Under the pieces are notes generated by a model. The model was not told the origin of the DNA. It saw nothing but the letters and a program-made list of their open reading frames with translations, and made no database searches. Shown here piece by piece: positions 35,230-44,599 of a DNA stretch of 64,000 bases. Numbering within the stretch: the stretch's first letter is position 1; each line of letters begins with the position of its first letter. A program made the position numbers and the translations under genes. Source of the DNA: Halohasta litchfieldiae (GTDB taxonomy: Archaea; Halobacteriota; Halobacteria; Halobacteriales; Haloferacaceae); the NCBI RefSeq assembly GCF_002788215.1, contig NZ_CP024845.1, positions 3,162,001-3,226,000 on the forward strand. Reading direction: 5' to 3'.

Positions 35230-35900
35230 TACCGCTCTACCACGATTTCAGCGAGGAAACGGTTCTCGTCTTCGGCGGCGGCAGCGTCGGAGCCCGCAAG
35301 GCTCGCCGGTTTGCCCGCGAGGCGCAGGTGGTCGTCATCAGCCCGGCGTTCGACGAGCGATTTGAGACCGACGAAGAGCTGGCAGCTGTCGACCGAATCC
35401 GTGCGGCTCCGGAGCCAGCCGAGGTCCCGGAGTGGGTCGACCGATTCGAGCCTGTCTTGGTCGTTGCTGCAACCGACGACCCTGATTTAAATAGGGCAGT
35501 CGACGAGGCAGCCAGCGAACGTGGACTACTTATAAACCGTACCGACCAGTCCGGCGGACGGGATGTCGACAGCGTCGTCGTTCCGGCCACCGTGCGCGAT
35601 GGGCCGGTATCGGTTGCGATTTCGACCGGCGGGAAGAGTCCCGCACTCTCGCGATATTTGCGCCAGCAGATCGAAGCCGAAATCGAGGATGCGGGTGCGA
35701 TGGCCGAGCTTACGGGGGAGCTTCGAGCGGAGCTGAAAGAATCCGACCTCTCGGTGGCAGATCGCCGGGCGGCTGTCCGGTCGGTTGTCCGTTCGTCGTC
35801 CGTTTGGAAGGCTTTACATACGGGTACTGCCAAAGCGACAAAAGAGGCAGAGCGCGTAATGGCAGCCGAACACGACGACACGGACGGTGGAAGCCGATGA
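35226..35900 (+). CDS. Precorrin-2 dehydrogenase / sirohydrochlorin ferrochelatase (CysG N-terminal type)
   Basis: The 224-residue protein starts with GTG (M-I-P-L-Y-H-D-F), overlapping the upstream stop. It has an NAD-binding motif, V-F-G-G-G-S-V-G-A-R-K-A near 15-26, and the catalytic-domain segment S-T-G-G-K-S-P-A-L-S-R near 132-142. It oxidises precorrin-2 to sirohydrochlorin and probably inserts iron to give siroheme. Its product feeds AhbAB beside it and the siroheme-dependent nitrite reductase at 42.8 kb. Confidence 0.92.
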   Translation: MIPLYHDFSEETVLVFGGGSVGARKARRFAREAQVVVISPAFDERFETDEELAAVDRIRAAPEPAEVPEWVDRFEPVLVVAATDDPDLNRAVDEAASERGLLINRTDQSGGRDVDSVVVPATVRDGPVSVAISTGGKSPALSRYLRQQIEAEIEDAGAMAELTGELRAELKESDLSVADRRAAVRSVVRSSSVWKALHTGTAKATKEAERVMAAEHDDTDGGSR

Positions 35901-37279
35901 TTCGGACCGGTGTCATCACAGGCGTTAGCGTTTCGCATATGAACGCGAGCGTTGATGAGATCGAAGCCGCTAGCTGTGCCGATGTCGTCGGTCGGGTGGC
36001 TGCGCTTCGAGCAAAGCCGGGCGTTTCAGAGGCGTTCGCACTCCAGACATGCAACCGGTCGGAAGCCTACGTCGTCACTGATCACGCCCGGCAGGGTCGT
36101 GAGGCGCTGGCTGAGGTCGTTGCTGATGTTCGAGAGGGCGCCGTCGACCACATGGACCACGAGGAGAGCCTGCGGCATCTCATGCGTGTCGCCGCCGGGC
36201 TGGACTCGCTGGTCCTCGGCGAAGACCAGATTATTGGCCAACTCAAAACCGCCTTCGAGGCCTCGCGGTCGGCCGATGGGATCGGTCCGCTCCTCGACGA
36301 TGCGATCACGAAGGCGATCCACGTCGGCGAACGCGCACGCACGGAAACCGAAATCAACGAGGGCGTCGTCTCGCTTGGCTCGGCGGCGGTGGAACTCGCC
36401 AGCCGAGAGACGGCGCTCGCCGGGTCGACCGCACTCGTCGTCGGCGCCGGTGAGATGGGATCGCTGGCGGCCACGGCGCTCGAATCGGCGGGCGTCGACC
36501 GGATCGTGATCGCCAACCGGACGATCCCACACGCGACACACATTGCCGAGACGGTCGAGACCGAGGCCAGCGCCATTGGGCTCGACGCGGCGGCCGCGGC
36601 CGCCGAGCAGGCCACGGTCGTCATCACAGCAACCGGGAGCCCGGATCACGTCCTCGACAGCGAGGGGCTCGCGGCGGCCGGAGAGACGATCTGTATCGAT
36701 CTCGCTCAACCACGGGATATCGAGCCCGCGGCGGCCGCTGTCGACGGGATCGCGGTCTACGATATCGACGATCTCGAATCGGTCACCGAGTCAACCCATC
36801 GTCGGCGGAAGGTCGCCGCCGAGGAGGTCAAGGCCATGATCGACGAGGAGTTCGACCGACTGTTGGCGCTGTTTAAACGCAAGCGTGCCGACGAGGCGAT
36901 CAGCGCGATGTACGAAAGCGCCGAGCGCGTCAAAAATCGGGAGGTCACCACTGCGGTCGACAAACTGGAGGCCCACGGCGAGTTGAACGACAAACAGCGC
37001 GACGTGATCGACTCGCTGGCGGATTCACTCGTCGGCCAGTTGCTGTCGGCTCCGACCAAGAGCCTGCGGGATGCGGCCGCCGAGGACGACTGGACGACGA
37101 TCCAGACCGCGATGCAGCTATTTAATCCGGAGTTCGACGGCGAGTTCCCACCGAGCGACGGTGAAATGGACGAAGCGTCGACCGAGGACCGCCCATCGGA
37201 GAGGCCCGACGAGATCCCGGAGGGCGTCTCGCCGGAGGATATTCCACCCCACGTTCTCGAACAGTTATCCGACGATTAA
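35897..37279 (+). CDS. hemA: Glutamyl-tRNA reductase
   Basis: The 460-residue enzyme reduces glutamyl-tRNA to glutamate-1-semialdehyde, the first step of tetrapyrrole synthesis. The nucleophilic cysteine is C52 in L-Q-T-C-N-R-S-E. L-G-E-D-Q-I near 109-114 and the NADPH motif V-V-G-A-G-E-M-G follow. A long acidic C-terminal tail rich in E, P and D is haloarchaeal. The ATG overlaps the preceding stop (ATGA). Confidence 0.96.
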   Translation: MIRTGVITGVSVSHMNASVDEIEAASCADVVGRVAALRAKPGVSEAFALQTCNRSEAYVVTDHARQGREALAEVVADVREGAVDHMDHEESLRHLMRVAAGLDSLVLGEDQIIGQLKTAFEASRSADGIGPLLDDAITKAIHVGERARTETEINEGVVSLGSAAVELASRETALAGSTALVVGAGEMGSLAATALESAGVDRIVIANRTIPHATHIAETVETEASAIGLDAAAAAAEQATVVITATGSPDHVLDSEGLAAAGETICIDLAQPRDIEPAAAAVDGIAVYDIDDLESVTESTHRRRKVAAEEVKAMIDEEFDRLLALFKRKRADEAISAMYESAERVKNREVTTAVDKLEAHGELNDKQRDVIDSLADSLVGQLLSAPTKSLRDAAAEDDWTTIQTAMQLFNPEFDGEFPPSDGEMDEASTEDRPSERPDEIPEGVSPEDIPPHVLEQLSDD

Positions 37280-37346
37280 CGGGTCAGTGACACCGTGTCA
37301 GTCGACCGCCACCAACTGTTATTGAGCCGGACGTCGACTTCCAACC

Positions 37347-37616
37347 ATGACACTCGATAACGACGAGATAGCCGACCGGCTGCCCGACGACTGGGGCCGC
37401 GAGGGCGACGAAATCGTCCGGACCTACGAGTTCGACGACTACCTCACTGGCGTCGACTTCGCAACCGAGTGCGCCGAAATAGCCAACGAGGAGTTCCATC
37501 ACCCCGAACTGATCATCGGCTTCCGGACTGTGGAGGTGCGGCTGACGAGCCACGAGGCTGGTGGAATCACCGATGACGACATCCGGCTTGCAAAGCAGTT
37601 CGACGACGAGTACTGA
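37347..37616 (+). CDS. Pterin-4a-carbinolamine dehydratase
   Basis: The 89-residue protein has the PCD motif E-F-H-H-P-E-L near 48-54, followed by V-E-V-R-L-T-S-H and G-G-I-T-D-D-D near 70-76. It would dehydrate 4a-hydroxytetrahydropterins or act as a dimerisation cofactor. It is five bases ahead of the LWR-salt gene. Confidence 0.93.
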   Translation: MTLDNDEIADRLPDDWGREGDEIVRTYEFDDYLTGVDFATECAEIANEEFHHPELIIGFRTVEVRLTSHEAGGITDDDIRLAKQFDDEY

Positions 37617-37621
37617 GACCG

Positions 37622-37984
37622 ATGGACGCCGCCTACGTGTTTCGCGTCCGCTTTCGCCTCGATCCCGACGACGTGCGAGTCGACCCCAACGAGTTCGAGA
37701 CCGTCCTCCGGATTCCGGCCGCAGAGCCCGGAAAAGAGGGCTGGCTGTTCTTCCAGCAGCACCTCTGGCGGGGCAAGGTTGGCGACGAGAAACACCTCCG
37801 GGAGATTGCCGAAGATCATCTTGGCGTGTCGGTCAGTGCAGCGAGCTTCAGCGAACTCGAAACCGACGAGCCGTATCTCGACGCGCTGAAAGACGAGATT
37901 GCGGTTGGGGTGGCGAGATTCAACGCCGACTCGGTCGACGAAGTCCTCCACAAATATCTCGGCAGTTCGATCCACGTCCGATAA
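37622..37984 (+). CDS. LWR-salt domain protein
   Basis: The 120-residue acidic soluble protein contains the diagnostic H-L-W-R-G-K segment near 42-47, preceded by E-G-W-L-F-F-Q-Q. This matches the haloarchaeal LWR-salt family, whose function is unknown. It is probably co-transcribed with the PCD gene. The family name is from memory. Confidence 0.75.
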   Translation: MDAAYVFRVRFRLDPDDVRVDPNEFETVLRIPAAEPGKEGWLFFQQHLWRGKVGDEKHLREIAEDHLGVSVSAASFSELETDEPYLDALKDEIAVGVARFNADSVDEVLHKYLGSSIHVR

Positions 37985-38059
37985 CCAGACAGATCGATCT
38001 ACCGGCCAGTTTGTTACACCGTAACACACATATACCATAGCCACGTAGATATTTGTCCA

Positions 38060-38737
38060 ATGGTCACCGAGGAGTACGATTTCTGGCTGTTCGATCTCGA
38101 CGGGACGCTGATCGACACCGAGTGGGGGTACACCCGCGAGGTGTTCGACCGCGTCGGTGATCGGTTAGGTCGACCGTTTAGCGACCGCGAGGCCGAAATC
38201 ATCTGGCACGGGCTGGGTGGCGCACGCGACCCCATGCTCCGACAGTGGGGGATCGACCCCGCGGAGTTTTGGCCCGTGTTCCACGACGAAGAAGAGCCGC
38301 TGGTTCGGGCGGAATCAACGTATCTCCACCCCGACGCGGTCGACTTCATGGCTGAGATCGAACGCCAATCGGTGCCGGTCGGCCTCGTGACCCACTGCCA
38401 AGAGTTTTTGACCGAACCCGTGTTACAGCATCTCGATATCGGTGACTGGTTCGACACCGTCGTCTGTTGTACCGAGGAGTTGGGGTGGAAACCCGACCCT
38501 GCGCCGGTGAGCCATGCGATGAGCCAGTTGGGTGTCGACGCCAGCCAGCGCGGCGTGTTGGCGGGTGATGGCGAAAGCGACATCGGCGCGGCGTGGAACG
38601 CCGGACTCGATGGGATTCACGTCGAACGCCACGGCGTCGACCAGCGGGGACGCTGTGTGTTGGGCGATTATCGCGTCGACTCCTTCGAGCCGCTGTTGTC
38701 GGATGTGGCAACCGATGGCGGAACGAAACGGGTGTAA
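38060..38737 (+). CDS. HAD-superfamily phosphatase
   Basis: The 225-residue protein has HAD motif I F-D-L-D-G-T-L-I-D with the nucleophile at D12, motif II V-T-H near 119 and motif IV G-D-G-E-S-D near 172. A helical cap lies between motifs I and II, as in phosphoglycolate phosphatase-like enzymes. The substrate cannot be told from sequence. Confidence 0.9.
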   Translation: MVTEEYDFWLFDLDGTLIDTEWGYTREVFDRVGDRLGRPFSDREAEIIWHGLGGARDPMLRQWGIDPAEFWPVFHDEEEPLVRAESTYLHPDAVDFMAEIERQSVPVGLVTHCQEFLTEPVLQHLDIGDWFDTVVCCTEELGWKPDPAPVSHAMSQLGVDASQRGVLAGDGESDIGAAWNAGLDGIHVERHGVDQRGRCVLGDYRVDSFEPLLSDVATDGGTKRV

Positions 38738-38751
38738 AAACGCTTCTGCAG

Positions 38752-39492
38752 TTAGTCGGCGAGATTCGGTGAGGCAGTCGACTCGCCGTCGTCACCGCCA
38801 GCGTCCATCGCCAGCGCGTCGTCGGCCAGTGGGTTGAGCGCATCCCGACCGAGCAGCGCGAAGACGGCGAAGCCGACCTTCGTGATGATGTCGAGATAGA
38901 CGACCACCATCATCTCCGTGTTCGGCAGCAGGTAGCCGTATCCGACGGGTGCCAGCAGCCAGACGATGGGGTACATCGTCCAGAGAACGACCGTCACGTT
39001 GCGGAGTTTGGTGAACACCATCGCCACGCGGTCGGTTTCGAACGTTGCTCGTGCCGGAAGTTCGACCACAAGCAGGTAGGCAAGGGCGAGATAGGCAAGG
39101 GTGCCAGCCCCGAACAGCGCCAACGAGAGCGTCCCGGTGGTGAAGATCGCAGCGATCCCGAGGAGGATCAGCGCCACATCGAGGCCGATCAGGAGGCCGT
39201 AGATCTGCTTGCCCGGCTTACAGAGCAGCGTCATATAGAGAATCAAAAGCGGCGTCGTCAACAGCCAGTCGACGTACCGCGGGGTGTAGAAGCTCGCCCC
39301 ATCGACCGAGAGCGTGCCGATTCCCTGTGAGGTCAGCGTATACGAGACGGCGGCAATAGCGGTAATCGCCGCGAGAATCGCATAGTAGCGTCGGTTCTCC
39401 GGCTCAGTAAGCGCGAAGTAGACCGAGGGGAGCGTGCCGGCCGCCAGCGCAATGGCACCGATAGCCGCCCAGAGTTCGACGGGCAGTATCAT
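38752..39492 (-). CDS. sop2: Sensory rhodopsin II
   Basis: The 246-residue retinal protein has seven membrane helices. The retinal lysine is K205. Residue numbers coincide with Natronomonas SRII: counterion D75, signalling residues Y174 and T204, and transducer contact Y199 are all present. The position of the proton donor in pumps is Y86, so it should not pump; SRII of Natronomonas has Phe there. A short acidic C-terminal tail follows. Its ATG overlaps the stop of the transducer gene, the usual htr-sop order. It would mediate blue-light avoidance. Confidence 0.9.
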   Translation of the reverse strand: MILPVELWAAIGAIALAAGTLPSVYFALTEPENRRYYAILAAITAIAAVSYTLTSQGIGTLSVDGASFYTPRYVDWLLTTPLLILYMTLLCKPGKQIYGLLIGLDVALILLGIAAIFTTGTLSLALFGAGTLAYLALAYLLVVELPARATFETDRVAMVFTKLRNVTVVLWTMYPIVWLLAPVGYGYLLPNTEMMVVVYLDIITKVGFAVFALLGRDALNPLADDALAMDAGGDDGESTASPNLAD

Positions 39493-41171
39493 CGGTCATC
39501 ACCGAACTGGAAGCCACCGTCGTCAGTGTGTTTGCCGCCGTCGGTGGCTGCTTTCGAGCTCCCCCCTGTCGGCGAGTTGTCGACTGTGATCTGGTTGGTC
39601 GACCCACCGGATCGCCCCGGCCCATCCGTCGAGATATCGAACTGATCGAGGACAGCCAACAGTTTCTCGGCTTGCGAACCGAGCTCGCCGGCCTCGTGTT
39701 CGACTGTTTCGAGGCTCTTGAGCTGCTGTTCGGTGGTATCGGTCACGTTGTCGGCCGCATTGGACGTCTGCTCGCTGATCGACGCGACTTCGTCGATCAT
39801 GTCGACGACCGCGCCGGCGGCGCGGGCCTGGTCTTCGGTCGTCTTGTTGATCTCGCTCATACTGCTGTCGATCTCGTCGACGTACTCGATGACGTTGTTG
39901 AGTTGATCGATTGCACCCTCGACAGTTTCGACGCCTTGGCTGATTCGAATGGTGGTTTCGTCCATTCCGGCGACCGCATCGCCGGTTCGCTCTTGGACGC
40001 TCTGGATTTTGCCGTCGATCTCGCTGGCGGCCTCTTTGGTCTCCTCGGCAAGCGATTTGACCTCTTCGGCAACGACCGCGAACCCTGCGCCCTCTTCGCC
40101 CGCGCGGGCGGCCTCGATGGAGGCATTCAGGGCCAAGAGGTTCGTCTGCTCGGCGATCTCGCTGATCATATCCGCGATTTCGCCGATTTCGGTCATCTCC
40201 TCGTCGAGCGCCTCGATGTCCTCCATCGTTTCGTCGGTTGTTTCCTCGACGGCGGCCATCTGTTCGAGCGCGTCGGCGGCGGCGGACTCGCCTTCGGTTC
40301 CGGCCTCGGTCGCGTTCTCGGTGGTTTGGGCGACCGTTTCGACGGTTGCGGCGACCTCTTCGGCACCCGAGGAGAGCCCGTCCATCTCGTTGGCTACCTC
40401 TCGGAGGTTTTCGGTCTGTTTGTGGGCTCCTTCGGAGATGTCTTCGACAGCATCCGAGACGCCACCACTGGTTCGCTGGAGTTCTTCGGCACGAGTATCG
40501 ACGCCACTTGCGGCGTCGCCCACGGTGTCGGCGAACGTTGTGACCTCGCCAATCGTCCCTTCCAGTTCGTCGAGCATCTCGTTGAACGCGAGACCGACCT
40601 GCTGCATGGCCTCACTTTCGCCGTTGGGGTCGACGCGCTGGGTCAGATCGCCGTTGGCGACCTGCCGCATCGTTCGCTCGTAGCTCTCGGCCTGCTGTTC
40701 GATTCTGGAGGCTCGGCGCTCCATTTCGTCGCGGGCCGCTTGGGCCTCTTGGGTGGCGTCTTCGGCCTCGTGGCGGGCCTCGTCGGCGGCCGAAATCTCC
40801 TGTCGCAGGGAGCGACGCATCGATTCGAACGAGCGGTAGAGCTGGCCGATTTCGTCGCTGCGCTCGGTTTCGAGTTCGACATCAAGATCACCGTCGGCCA
40901 TCCGGTCGGCCTTGCCGGCCAGATGGCGCAACGAAATAATCGTCTGGCTACCGATGGTGACGCCGATCAGCGCGAGACTGATTACCGTCAGCAGGATGAG
41001 GCCGAGGATGCTCGACCCCAACTCCCCGCTGCCGGCTCCGAGCGCCTCGACTGCCTCGATATGCACGAACAGCCCGGCGCCGACGACGATTCCGACGACC
41101 CCGAGCAGCGACAACGTCAGCTTTGCCGCGTAGCTTCCGCGGATGAAGTTCAGTGACTGCTCCGTACTCAT
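39489..41171 (-). CDS. htr2: Sensory rhodopsin II transducer HtrII
   Basis: From M-S-T-E-Q-S the protein has 560 residues. Two membrane helices (about 17-38 and 54-76) are joined by only ~15 outside residues, as in Natronomonas HtrII and unlike the large periplasmic domain of Halobacterium HtrII. HAMP linkers follow, the first with G-D-L-D-V-E-L-E. The methyl-accepting signalling hairpin has E-I-A-E-Q-T-N-L-L-A-L-N-A at its tip. It passes light signals from the rhodopsin to CheA/CheW. The region matching Asn74 of Natronomonas HtrII reads V-I-S-L, so that contact is Ser. Confidence 0.92.
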   Translation of the reverse strand: MSTEQSLNFIRGSYAAKLTLSLLGVVGIVVGAGLFVHIEAVEALGAGSGELGSSILGLILLTVISLALIGVTIGSQTIISLRHLAGKADRMADGDLDVELETERSDEIGQLYRSFESMRRSLRQEISAADEARHEAEDATQEAQAARDEMERRASRIEQQAESYERTMRQVANGDLTQRVDPNGESEAMQQVGLAFNEMLDELEGTIGEVTTFADTVGDAASGVDTRAEELQRTSGGVSDAVEDISEGAHKQTENLREVANEMDGLSSGAEEVAATVETVAQTTENATEAGTEGESAAADALEQMAAVEETTDETMEDIEALDEEMTEIGEIADMISEIAEQTNLLALNASIEAARAGEEGAGFAVVAEEVKSLAEETKEAASEIDGKIQSVQERTGDAVAGMDETTIRISQGVETVEGAIDQLNNVIEYVDEIDSSMSEINKTTEDQARAAGAVVDMIDEVASISEQTSNAADNVTDTTEQQLKSLETVEHEAGELGSQAEKLLAVLDQFDISTDGPGRSGGSTNQITVDNSPTGGSSKAATDGGKHTDDGGFQFGDDR

Positions 41172-41252
41172 AGTGATACCAACTAGTAAGATATCGTGTA
41201 TCATAAAACCACAACACGCAGTTATCAGTGCTGAGAGTCGTCTACAGGTAGT

Positions 41253-42017
41253 TCAGAGATCAGTCGGGTGAGCGTGGTAGCTCGTCGACAGTCCCCAGTC
41301 GTCGACCAGTGTCTGTAGGCTCCGAACGCCGAATGTTTCGGTCGCGTAGTGGCCTGCCAGAATGGCGTTGATATTGGCCTCGCGAGCCTGATGGTAGAGC
41401 TTCTGTTTGCCCTCGCCAGTTATCAGGAGGTCGACGTCCGCCGCGATGGCCTCGTCGAGCCAGTCGCTGCCGCTACCGGTGACGATGGCGACGGTCGCTA
41501 CCTCGTCGGGGCCGAAGTCGAATGTCTGGACGCTGTCGGTGCCCTCCAGTTCGGTTTCGAGTTGGGTCGTGATCTCGTCGACCGAACGGGCCTCACCCAG
41601 TCGACCCTGCTGGCCAATCGTCACAGGACCCATCGATCCAAAAGGAGCGGTGTCGGCCAATCCCAGCAGATCTGCGATTCCCGCCGCGTTGCCGACCGAC
41701 TGGTGGCCATCAAGCGGGAGATGCGAGACGTAGAGCGCGATGTCGTTTTTGATAAGCGGTGCAATCCGCCGGTACTGCCGGTCGGTGACGCGTTCGATCC
41801 CGCCCCACGAGAGTCCGTGGTGGGTCACGAGCACGTCAGCGTCTGCGTCGACCGCGGCCTCAATCGTTGCCTCGGCGGCGTCGACCGCGAACGCGGCGTG
41901 ATCTACGTCTTGCTCGGGGGGGCCAATCTGCAGGCCATTGGCGCTGGCGTCGACATCCGCATACGCGTCGGTCTGCAGTTCCTCATCTAATCGCGCGGTA
42001 AACGTCGAGAGTTCCAT
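41253..42017 (-). CDS. Nif3-like dinuclear metal-centre protein
   Basis: The 254-residue protein has the metal-ligand pattern of the Nif3/DUF34 family: V-T-H-H-G-L-S-W near 63-70, S-H-L-P-L-D near 98-103 and G-H-Y-A-T-E near 222-227. Members form hexameric toroids with two metals per subunit. The assignment as GTP cyclohydrolase type 2 often given to the family is not well supported. Confidence 0.92.
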   Translation of the reverse strand: MELSTFTARLDEELQTDAYADVDASANGLQIGPPEQDVDHAAFAVDAAEATIEAAVDADADVLVTHHGLSWGGIERVTDRQYRRIAPLIKNDIALYVSHLPLDGHQSVGNAAGIADLLGLADTAPFGSMGPVTIGQQGRLGEARSVDEITTQLETELEGTDSVQTFDFGPDEVATVAIVTGSGSDWLDEAIAADVDLLITGEGKQKLYHQAREANINAILAGHYATETFGVRSLQTLVDDWGLSTSYHAHPTDL

Positions 42018-42087
42018 ACCGACCGCTACGCGGCGAGCGGCTTGTAAGCCACGGACTCGCTACCGCAGCGAGACCAAAAGAGAGCAG

Positions 42088-42459
42088 TTACTCGATGGAG
42101 ACGGCGTTGACCTGCCCGTCCTGGCCGGGTCGGGAGGTGACGCGGGCCTTGCCCTCGCTGGTTTCGATGACTGCGCCCTTCGTGATGATGTTCCGTCGGA
42201 CGTAGTTGACGTTCGAGGGGTTCTCGACGACGTCCTCGATTGTGACTTCGGTCGTCTCGCCGCCGTCCGACAGCTGTGCGACGTTCGTCGACAGCGCGCG
42301 GAGTTTGTCATCGTTGCCACGGGCGTCGATGATCTGGAGGCGTGGTTCGGCGACAGTGGTCTCGGCTGGCTCGCGGCCGAGCTGGTGCCGTTTCTTTTTG
42401 CTGAAATGTTTGAGCCGTCCGCCGGTCCGCTTCCGCGTAGAGTGTCCCTGATCTTTCAT
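42088..42459 (-). CDS. rps8e: Ribosomal protein S8e
   Basis: The 123-residue protein starts with the basic S-T-R-K-R-T-G-G-R-L-K near 7-17 followed by K-K-K-R-H-Q-L-G-R-E, and has the family segments N-P-S-N-V-N-Y-V-R-R-N-I-I-T-K-G and S-R-P-G-Q-D-G near the C-terminus. It is a component of the archaeal 30S subunit. Confidence 0.96.
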   Translation of the reverse strand: MKDQGHSTRKRTGGRLKHFSKKKRHQLGREPAETTVAEPRLQIIDARGNDDKLRALSTNVAQLSDGGETTEVTIEDVVENPSNVNYVRRNIITKGAVIETSEGKARVTSRPGQDGQVNAVSIE

Positions 42460-42835
42460 ACTCCGAACTGAACACCAGCAGCTACTTGAATCGCTCGAAA
42501 CGACGCGGCTCGACCACCGCCGCCAGAGGGGCGAGAAGGCCAGTGGGCTCGCCGTTCTTCACAAAGTGTTGTCACTATTTGAGTACGCGATTCTGAAATT
42601 TGTACTTTCGCTGGATATTCGTTGGTTTGAGTAGGGTAAAAACACAGATCTAATCACCTTATACACATATTATTAGCTATTAAACTGTCCAGCTGTCGAC
42701 TTAGGCAGGTATATTTCTGACAATGTAAACGATTAGGGTTATATGTGTCCGGACAAGACCGTTTTACCGTGACTACACGGATGGATGTGCCACATACCGA
42801 ACTAAAATCGCACGTCTGTCCACACTGACCAAACC
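42460..42835. promoter_or_regulatory. Divergent upstream region of rps8e and nirA
   Basis: This 376-base gap has no gene. The rps8e half is GC-rich, the nirA half AT-rich. TATA-like sequences for rightward transcription lie at about 42656-42675 (TTATACACATATTATTAG) and 42737-42746 (GGTTATATGT). A nitrogen-responsive nirA promoter is likely here, but no known operator is recognised. Confidence 0.45.
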
Positions 42836-44599
42836 ATGAGCCAGAAAAAGAAAGAGGAGTACAAAGACGGGCTGTACGGAGACGAGGTACGCGAAAAACT
42901 GATAGAGTTCGCCGAGAAGGGGTACGATTCAATCCCCGAAGACGAAAAGGACGCGTGGCTCTCGCGGTTCAAGTTCTGGGGCGTCTTCGCCCACCGGTCT
43001 GGCCAGGAGGGCTACTTCATGATGCGGCTGACCAACTGTAATGGCATCTTGGAGCCGGGGCAACTCCGGGCCATCGGTGAGGTCGCCCGCGACTACGCCC
43101 AGGGACCGATTGGCAACCCCGAGTACGGCAACGGGTGGATCGACTTCACCACGCGACAGTCGGTCCAACTCCACTGGATCAAACTCGAAGACGTCCCGAA
43201 AATCTGGGAGAAACTCGAAGGCACGGGCGTCACCACCCGATCTGCGGGCGGCGACACGATGCGAAACATCTCGGGGTGTGCGGTCGCCGGCAAGGCCAAA
43301 GACGAAATCGTCGACACGCTGCCGATCCTCGAACGGTTCCAAGATCAAATCCGCGGCGACAACGCGCTGTGCAACATGCCCCGGAAGTTCAACATCTCGA
43401 TCACCGGAACGCCCGAGGGCGGCGCACAGGACTCGATCAACGACATCGGTCTCGAACCAGCGAAAAAGGAGATCGACGGCGAGGAGACGCTTGGTTTCAA
43501 CGTTCGCGTCGGCGGCGGCCTCGGTGGTCACGAACCACGCGTCGCACGCTCGATCAACGTATTCGTCGAGCCGGACAACGCCGTCGACGTCGTCCGTGGC
43601 TTCGTCGAACTCTACCACGAACACGGCGACCGCGAAGTCAGATCGAAAAACCGCTCGCGCTTTTTCGTCGACGACAAAGGCACAGAGTGGATCCGAGAGA
43701 CGCTTCAGGAGGACTTCGTCGACTTTGAACTGAAAACGGGCGGCAAAGACATGCGGGAAAACTACACGTTCAACGCCGGCCGCGACAGCGAGGACGGCAA
43801 GTTCGACTACCTCGGCGTCCATGAACAGAAAGATGGCAACTTCTATGTCGGCATCAACGTTGCCGTCGGGCGGATGGAAGCTGCGGAGGTAATACGGCTG
43901 GCCGATCTGGCCGACGAGTACGGCTCCGGCGAAATCCGGCTTAGTCGACGCCAGAACCCGATCATCGTGGATGTCGACGCCGACCGCGTCGACGAACTGC
44001 TCCGCAAACCGCTGCTCCACAAACACAAACCCGAACCCAACCCGTTCGTTCGTGGGGCAATGGCCTGTACCGGCACCGAGTTCTGTTCGCTCGCGCTCGC
44101 CGAGACCAAGACGCGGATGGCCGCGATGCTGCGCTGGCTGCGGGACAACGTCGACCTGCCGGACGATGTCGACCAACTCAAGATCCACTTCTCGGGCTGT
44201 ACGGCCGACTGTGGACAGGCCAACACCGCCGATATCGGCCTGATCGGCATGCGTGGCCGCAAGGACGGCGAGATGGTCGAAGCCCTCGATCTCGGCGTCG
44301 GCGGCGGAATCGGTGAGGAACCCGCCTTCGTGGAATGGATTCGTCAGCGAATCCCTGCTGACGAGGTTCCCGGTGCGATCAAGAACCTCGTCGAGGCCTT
44401 TGCCGCCCACCGCTTCGAGGGCCAGACCTTCCGCGAGTGGGTCGACGCCACGGGTGACGAGCCGCTGATCGAACTCAGCGAACCGGAGGAAACGAGCTAC
44501 GAAGATCCGGCACTCACCGACGCCAAACAGTCGTGGTACCCCTTCGCCGAGGAGGACACGGAGCTCACCCCCGATGGGATCGCCCACGCCGATGACTGA
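42836..44599 (+). CDS. nirA: Assimilatory ferredoxin-nitrite reductase
   Basis: The 587-residue siroheme/4Fe-4S enzyme reduces nitrite to ammonia with ferredoxin. It has the two ferredoxin-like half domains of the nitrite/sulfite reductase family. The cluster cysteines are C411 and C417 (A-C-T-G-T-E-F-C) and C455 and C459 (S-G-C-T-A-D-C). T-R-Q-S-V-Q-L-H-W and the N-C-N-G-I-L near 67-72 belong to the substrate and siroheme sites. A sulfite reductase role is less likely because assimilatory nitrate reductase and MobA genes are also in this window. Confidence 0.92.
   Translation: MSQKKKEEYKDGLYGDEVREKLIEFAEKGYDSIPEDEKDAWLSRFKFWGVFAHRSGQEGYFMMRLTNCNGILEPGQLRAIGEVARDYAQGPIGNPEYGNGWIDFTTRQSVQLHWIKLEDVPKIWEKLEGTGVTTRSAGGDTMRNISGCAVAGKAKDEIVDTLPILERFQDQIRGDNALCNMPRKFNISITGTPEGGAQDSINDIGLEPAKKEIDGEETLGFNVRVGGGLGGHEPRVARSINVFVEPDNAVDVVRGFVELYHEHGDREVRSKNRSRFFVDDKGTEWIRETLQEDFVDFELKTGGKDMRENYTFNAGRDSEDGKFDYLGVHEQKDGNFYVGINVAVGRMEAAEVIRLADLADEYGSGEIRLSRRQNPIIVDVDADRVDELLRKPLLHKHKPEPNPFVRGAMACTGTEFCSLALAETKTRMAAMLRWLRDNVDLPDDVDQLKIHFSGCTADCGQANTADIGLIGMRGRKDGEMVEALDLGVGGGIGEEPAFVEWIRQRIPADEVPGAIKNLVEAFAAHRFEGQTFREWVDATGDEPLIELSEPEETSYEDPALTDAKQSWYPFAEEDTELTPDGIAHADD

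Follow-up and report, generated by a model that had tools for sequence, protein, structure and literature searches.

The SRII–HtrII gene pair of Halohasta litchfieldiae and receptor–transducer contacts across haloarchaea

In the complex of sensory rhodopsin II (SRII) with its transducer HtrII from Natronomonas pharaonis, Thr189 of the receptor contacts Glu43 and Ser62 of the transducer while Tyr199 contacts Asn74, and a T189V/Y199F double mutant binds about 100-fold more weakly (PMC3274258, available text). The same portion of that paper names Thr204 as important for colour and reports that its mutation disrupts phototaxis. Phe86 of Natronomonas SRII occupies the site that in bacteriorhodopsin holds the proton donor, Asp96; the neutral residue makes the M state long-lived, and decay is three-fold faster in F86D (PMC7704677, available text). 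In the open-licence PMC text accessible to us, including parts of PMC3274258, PMC12917780, PMC7704677, PMC5292967 and PMC6719526, we found no cross-genus comparison of the Asn74 or Thr189 site, nor a spectrum, phototaxis assay or complex structure of the pair described below. Here we compare with these systems the pair encoded in a 64,000-nucleotide stretch of the Halohasta litchfieldiae genome (contig NZ_CP024845.1), referred to as the window.

Identity and key residues of the gene pair

The two genes lie on the minus strand in the order HtrII, SRII, with an ATGA overlap and intact frames (Table 1). A longer alternative HtrII reading frame starts at 41204; we favour the start at 41171 (MST) because it is supported by the close relatives in Halohasta salina (L034) and Halohasta litorea (L046). 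In Pfam, the receptor matches Bac_rhodopsin (PF01036) with an E-value of 1.2e-43, and the transducer exceeds the cut-off for both HAMP (PF00672) and the MCP signalling domain (PF00015); NCBIfam assigned the rhodopsin to no family and gave the transducer no match near its cut-off. The best solved relative of the receptor is Natronomonas SRII (phmmer, E 2e-42), and that of the membrane part of the transducer is Natronomonas HtrII, with which N-terminal residues 10–145 align (phmmer, E 5.5e-25). An AlphaFold2 model of the SRII chain alone (pLDDT 91.9) fits best to Natronomonas SRII in the complex (Z 31.9; 222 residues superposed at an rmsd of 1.8); bacteriorhodopsins score lower by about 1.5. The receptor thus combines the microbial rhodopsin fold with the retinal lysine Lys205, the counterion Asp75, Tyr174, Tyr199 and an adjoining transducer gene, and all photochemical residues that are universal in the first comparison sample (see below) are present. 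The transducer has two transmembrane (TM) helices, supported by a hydropathy scan, the HAMP and MCP signalling domains, and a canonical signalling tip, NLLALNASIEAARAGEEGAGFAVVAEEV, that is nearly identical among relatives. The window pair is an ordinary haloarchaeal SRII–HtrII pair of Halohasta, of an already known family, and its identification as such in a first-pass annotation of the DNA is borne out by Pfam, phmmer, the gene overlap and the model fit.

Table 1. Features of the SRII–HtrII locus, in window coordinates. Np, Natronomonas pharaonis; literature roles are from the available text of the papers named.
Feature	Position	Strand	Evidence
Sensory rhodopsin II (sopII), 246 aa	38752..39492	(-)	Pfam PF01036, Natronomonas SRII matches, AlphaFold2 model
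HtrII transducer, 560 aa	39489..41171	(-)	Two TM helices, short loop, HAMP domains, MCP signalling domain; PF00672 and PF00015
SRII Thr204 codon (H-bond to Tyr174 in model system)	38881..38883	(-)	Alignment; role PMC3274258
SRII Tyr199 codon (contacts HtrII Asn74 in Natronomonas)	38896..38898	(-)	Alignment; invariant in 76/76 and 78/78 pairs
SRII Leu189 codon (Thr189 in Natronomonas, contacts HtrII Glu43/Ser62)	38926..38928	(-)	Alignment; contact PMC3274258
SRII Tyr86 codon (Phe86 in Natronomonas, Asp96 in bacteriorhodopsin)	39235..39237	(-)	Alignment and read-out; bacteriorhodopsin equivalence PMC7704677
HtrII TM2 region 53–75: Ser53 (Np Ser62), Ser65 (Np Asn74), invariant Gly74 (Np Gly83)	40947..41015	(-)	Ungapped in 76/76 pairs
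HtrII Ser65 codon (Natronomonas Asn74 equivalent)	40977..40979	(-)	Alignment and read-out
HtrII extracellular loop, TM1–TM2, ~16 residues	41016..41063	(-)	Hydropathy scan

A scripted read-out gave D75, Y86, Y174, L189, Y199, T204 and K205 in the receptor and Ser65 in the transducer. Together with the alignment it confirms what the first-pass annotation had stated, namely Natronomonas numbering at D75, Y174, Y199, T204 and K205, Tyr at position 86, and Ser65 at the Asn74 site, a real transducer contact at which the window pair does differ from that of Natronomonas. Near residue 86 and near the Asn74 column, neither phmmer alignment with the Natronomonas proteins contains a gap. A gap shift that would place Asn at the contact is ruled out, as HtrII 53–75 contains gaps in none of the 76 pairs of the first sample. 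The alignment to Natronomonas is ambiguous around the Glu43 equivalent in TM1.

Of the Natronomonas-type contact set, the window pair lacks both Thr189 and Asn74. Leu189, at the second contact of the model complex and absent from the earlier annotation, is a larger departure from the published contacts than Ser65. Coupling may differ in detail from the Natronomonas pair, and its strength is uncertain because Leu189 removes a contact whose loss, combined with that of Tyr199, causes the drop of about 100-fold in Natronomonas binding (PMC3274258, available text).

The same genome holds 11 places over the MCP-domain cut-off, eight archaellin-family matches and two CheW-domain matches. Given these taxis genes and the canonical HtrII tip, the best reading is that the pair is a normal SRII–HtrII photosensor operon of Halohasta serving as a standard phototaxis sensor, which we consider highly probable.

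The genes around the pair (window 35804–44599) are housekeeping genes, encoding glutamyl-tRNA reductase, pterin dehydratase, a HAD hydrolase, a NIF3-like protein, ribosomal S8e and nitrite/sulfite reductase. Elsewhere in the genome, there is a halorhodopsin-like gene close to the window, about 4.4 kb ahead of its start (L002, C1:3156979-3157650), and a bacteriorhodopsin-like gene at C1:1889356-1890015 (L001); both types were judged from sequence.

Residue states and contacts across haloarchaeal pairs

To place these residues in context, we counted their states in two samples, which overlap and are not independent. The first comprises 79 loci from named genomes, found by pattern search, of which 76 adjacent pairs were counted; L056 (contig end, transducer out of view) and L109 and L110 (whose rhodopsins lack both Tyr199 and a neighbouring transducer) were excluded. 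Asn74 and Phe86 are under-sampled in it because its search patterns miss Natronomonas itself. The second comprises 80 hand-picked regions, one to six per genus with Halorubrum-like and other large genera thinned, and yielded 78 pairs from 37 genera after exclusion of L181 and L186, which have no upstream transducer.

Tyr is the commonest state at residue 86, both in the first sample (Y 60, F 12, V 2, L 2) and in the second (Y 47, F 28, L 2, D 1). The counts rule out Tyr86 as a rarity. Nor is Ser at the Asn74 site unusual: it occurs in 20 of 76 pairs (G 29, N 25, T 2) and in 29 of 78 (N 39, G 7, T 3), including Halobacterium salinarum (L059), although the commonest single state in the second sample is Asn. 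As Asn is found there in only part of the pairs, it is not defining for HtrII as a whole. The same applies to Thr189 in SRII, given the spread of states at residue 189 in the first (T 35, D 22, Q 9, L 6, E 2, I 1, V 1) and second sample (T 22, D 20, Q 13, L 8, S 4, E 3, N 3, V 2, and F, I and H once each). Residue 204 is Ser, Thr or Ala (S 40, T 22, A 14 and T 32, A 24, S 22, respectively). Tyr174 and Tyr199 are present in every pair of both samples.

The evolution of these sites was followed on a second tree of 79 pairs, from whose construction the tested columns were left out; change counts are by parsimony on a quick tree and thus rough. The tree requires 23 changes at residue 189, where the median of 213 SRII columns is 18, and seven at the HtrII Asn74 site, which equals the TM2 median of seven. 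SRII Tyr199 and Tyr174 and HtrII Gly74 (Np Gly83) do not change at all. The receptor side is therefore fixed, whereas lineages are free to differ in the transducer residue and in the second contact. In joint tallies of residue 189 and of HtrII site 74 against partner residues, the states track clades, and site 74 has changed independently only a few times (five on the first tree, seven on the second). All four model residues (T189, Y199, T204 and N74) are retained in only 14 of the 78 pairs of the second sample, and these 14 lie in one 15-row group with Natronomonas.

The two textbook SRII–HtrII contacts are lineage-specific. A broader proposition, to which we give about equal weight for and against, is that the two hydrogen bonds of the model complex are not general: only Tyr199, Tyr174 and HtrII Gly83 would be fixed across haloarchaea, residue 189 would drift like an average column, the Asn74 site would switch from lineage to lineage among Asn, Ser, Gly and Thr, and natural pairs with Leu189 and Ser65 would have to use a different contact set. 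The most useful result, a fixed receptor side facing a transducer residue and a second contact that vary by lineage, concerns the SRII–HtrII model system more than the window pair. The model rests largely on one species, and its four coupling residues are kept by only those 14 of the 78 adjacent pairs sampled from 37 genera; the window pair, without Thr189 and Asn74, is a convenient natural case for claims on how the signal crosses the interface.

These counts also bear on whether the window pair is functionally divergent, with Tyr86, Leu189 and Ser65 changing colour and photocycle and weakening coupling. Ser65 and Leu189 are both unlike the solved complex, and seven of 21 positions around the retinal or proton path (44, 83, 105, 108, 109, 131 and 134) differ from Natronomonas. 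Against this, both samples contain many pairs with Tyr86 and many with Ser at the Asn74 site, residue 189 changes more often than the median column, and Leu189 recurs in two of three close relatives (H. salina and the B1-Br10 MAG, L035; H. litorea has Gln189). In favour of a normal pair, H. salinarum, a classical SRII–HtrII organism, itself combines Tyr86 with Ser at the Asn74 site, and we regard divergence as improbable. Still less probable is that the genes do not form a working pair and that a decayed or re-purposed HtrII lies beside the rhodopsin: two published contacts are lost, but two intact, overlapping frames, HAMP and MCP domains above their cut-offs, the joint occurrence of both genes in 76 of 79 loci and 78 of 80 regions, and the absence of any change at Tyr199 and HtrII Gly74 on the tree speak against it.

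Several further variants were observed among the pairs. Ala204 is found in 24 of the 78 SRII with an adjacent HtrII (e.g. L155–L158, L162–L164 and L168–L170). In a Haloarculaceae-like group within the 76 pairs, residues 204 and 83 go together (His83 accompanies Ala204 in 11 of 12 rows and Ser204 in three of three, and Asn83 accompanies Thr204 in seven of seven), a pairing that may reflect one ancestral split. An SRII-like gene with Asp86 (L148, 3386-4087, minus strand), a natural counterpart of F86D, adjoins an HtrII whose loop is short and whose contact residue is Asn. In three SRII-like rhodopsins with an adjacent transducer (L154, L182 and L185), which form one group on the second tree, the counterion Asp75 is replaced by Gln, and the signalling tip of the transducers is altered, reading QKTNILAVNARIESSR or RKTNILAVNARIESSR instead of EQTNLLALNASIEAAR.

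Loop length and ancestry

The extracellular loop of HtrII, taken as the residues between the hydropathy-predicted TM1 and TM2, is about 14–16 residues long in Halorubraceae, about 20–21 in Natronomonas, Natrialbaceae and Halovenus, and about 240–255 in most others; two rows with a weak TM1 signal read 80 and 107. On the first tree the window pair groups with Halonotius, Halorubrum, Natronocalculus and Halalkalirubrum, and on both trees it nests among Halohasta, Halonotius and other Halorubraceae pairs. A single clade of the 43 short-loop rows is rejected by the AU test (p-AU 0.0068), and the loop state needs at least three changes on the second tree. Because one short-loop clade is rejected, shared shortness is no evidence of a Natronomonas-type origin. 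Of the earlier description of the loop as short and of Natronomonas type, the shortness is thus real, whereas the lineage does not hold. That a Natronomonas-type pair was acquired from that lineage, as short loops, Thr204 and nearly equal lengths in both might suggest, is the least probable of the readings considered, given the place of the window pair among Halorubraceae, the rejected clade, an SRII identity of 79/211 aligned positions to Natronomonas against 94/209 to H. salinarum, and a loop of about 16 residues against 21.

Proposed function and comparison with known systems

As a standard phototaxis sensor, the pair would work as follows. Light would isomerise the retinal on Lys205, the Schiff base proton would pass to Asp75, and the Tyr174–Thr204 pair together with helices F and G would relay the change to TM2 of HtrII, which in turn would drive the HAMP and MCP domains and so control CheA and the archaellum. 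The output would most likely be a repellent response to blue-green light. Contact with Tyr199 would be made by Ser65 instead of Asn74, directly or through water, and packing or other residues of the interface would stand in for the second contact of the model, absent with Leu189.

Tyr86 lies at the empty proton-donor site and, like Phe86, would make for a long-lived signalling M state. Since residue 86 corresponds to the Asp96 site of bacteriorhodopsin (PMC7704677, available text), the effect expected of it is on M decay and pH dependence, not on colour; colour tuning by this residue, proposed in the first-pass annotation, is accordingly not supported, and Tyr86 should instead influence the return of the proton and the decay of M. 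Thr204, which is named in connection with colour in Natronomonas, is retained. If the colour does differ, residues 83, 105, 108, 109 and 131, which are not as in Natronomonas, would be better candidates than 86.

Among known systems, the pairs of H. litorea (SRII identity 82%) and H. salina (80–81%) resemble the window pair in gene order and in the shortness of the loop, and both carry Tyr86, Thr204 and, at the Asn74 site, Ser; at residue 189, H. litorea has Gln, whereas H. salina and the window pair have Leu. H. salinarum shares Tyr86 and Tyr199 and likewise has Ser at the Asn74 site, but differs in Gln189 and Ser204 and in a transducer whose extracellular part spans about 245 residues. N. 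pharaonis (PDB 1H2S and others; L151 is near-identical) shares the fold, D75, Y174, Y199, T204, K205 and a short HtrII loop, whereas it has Phe86, Thr189 and Asn74 in place of Tyr86, Leu189 and Ser65, and the two belong to separate short-loop groups.
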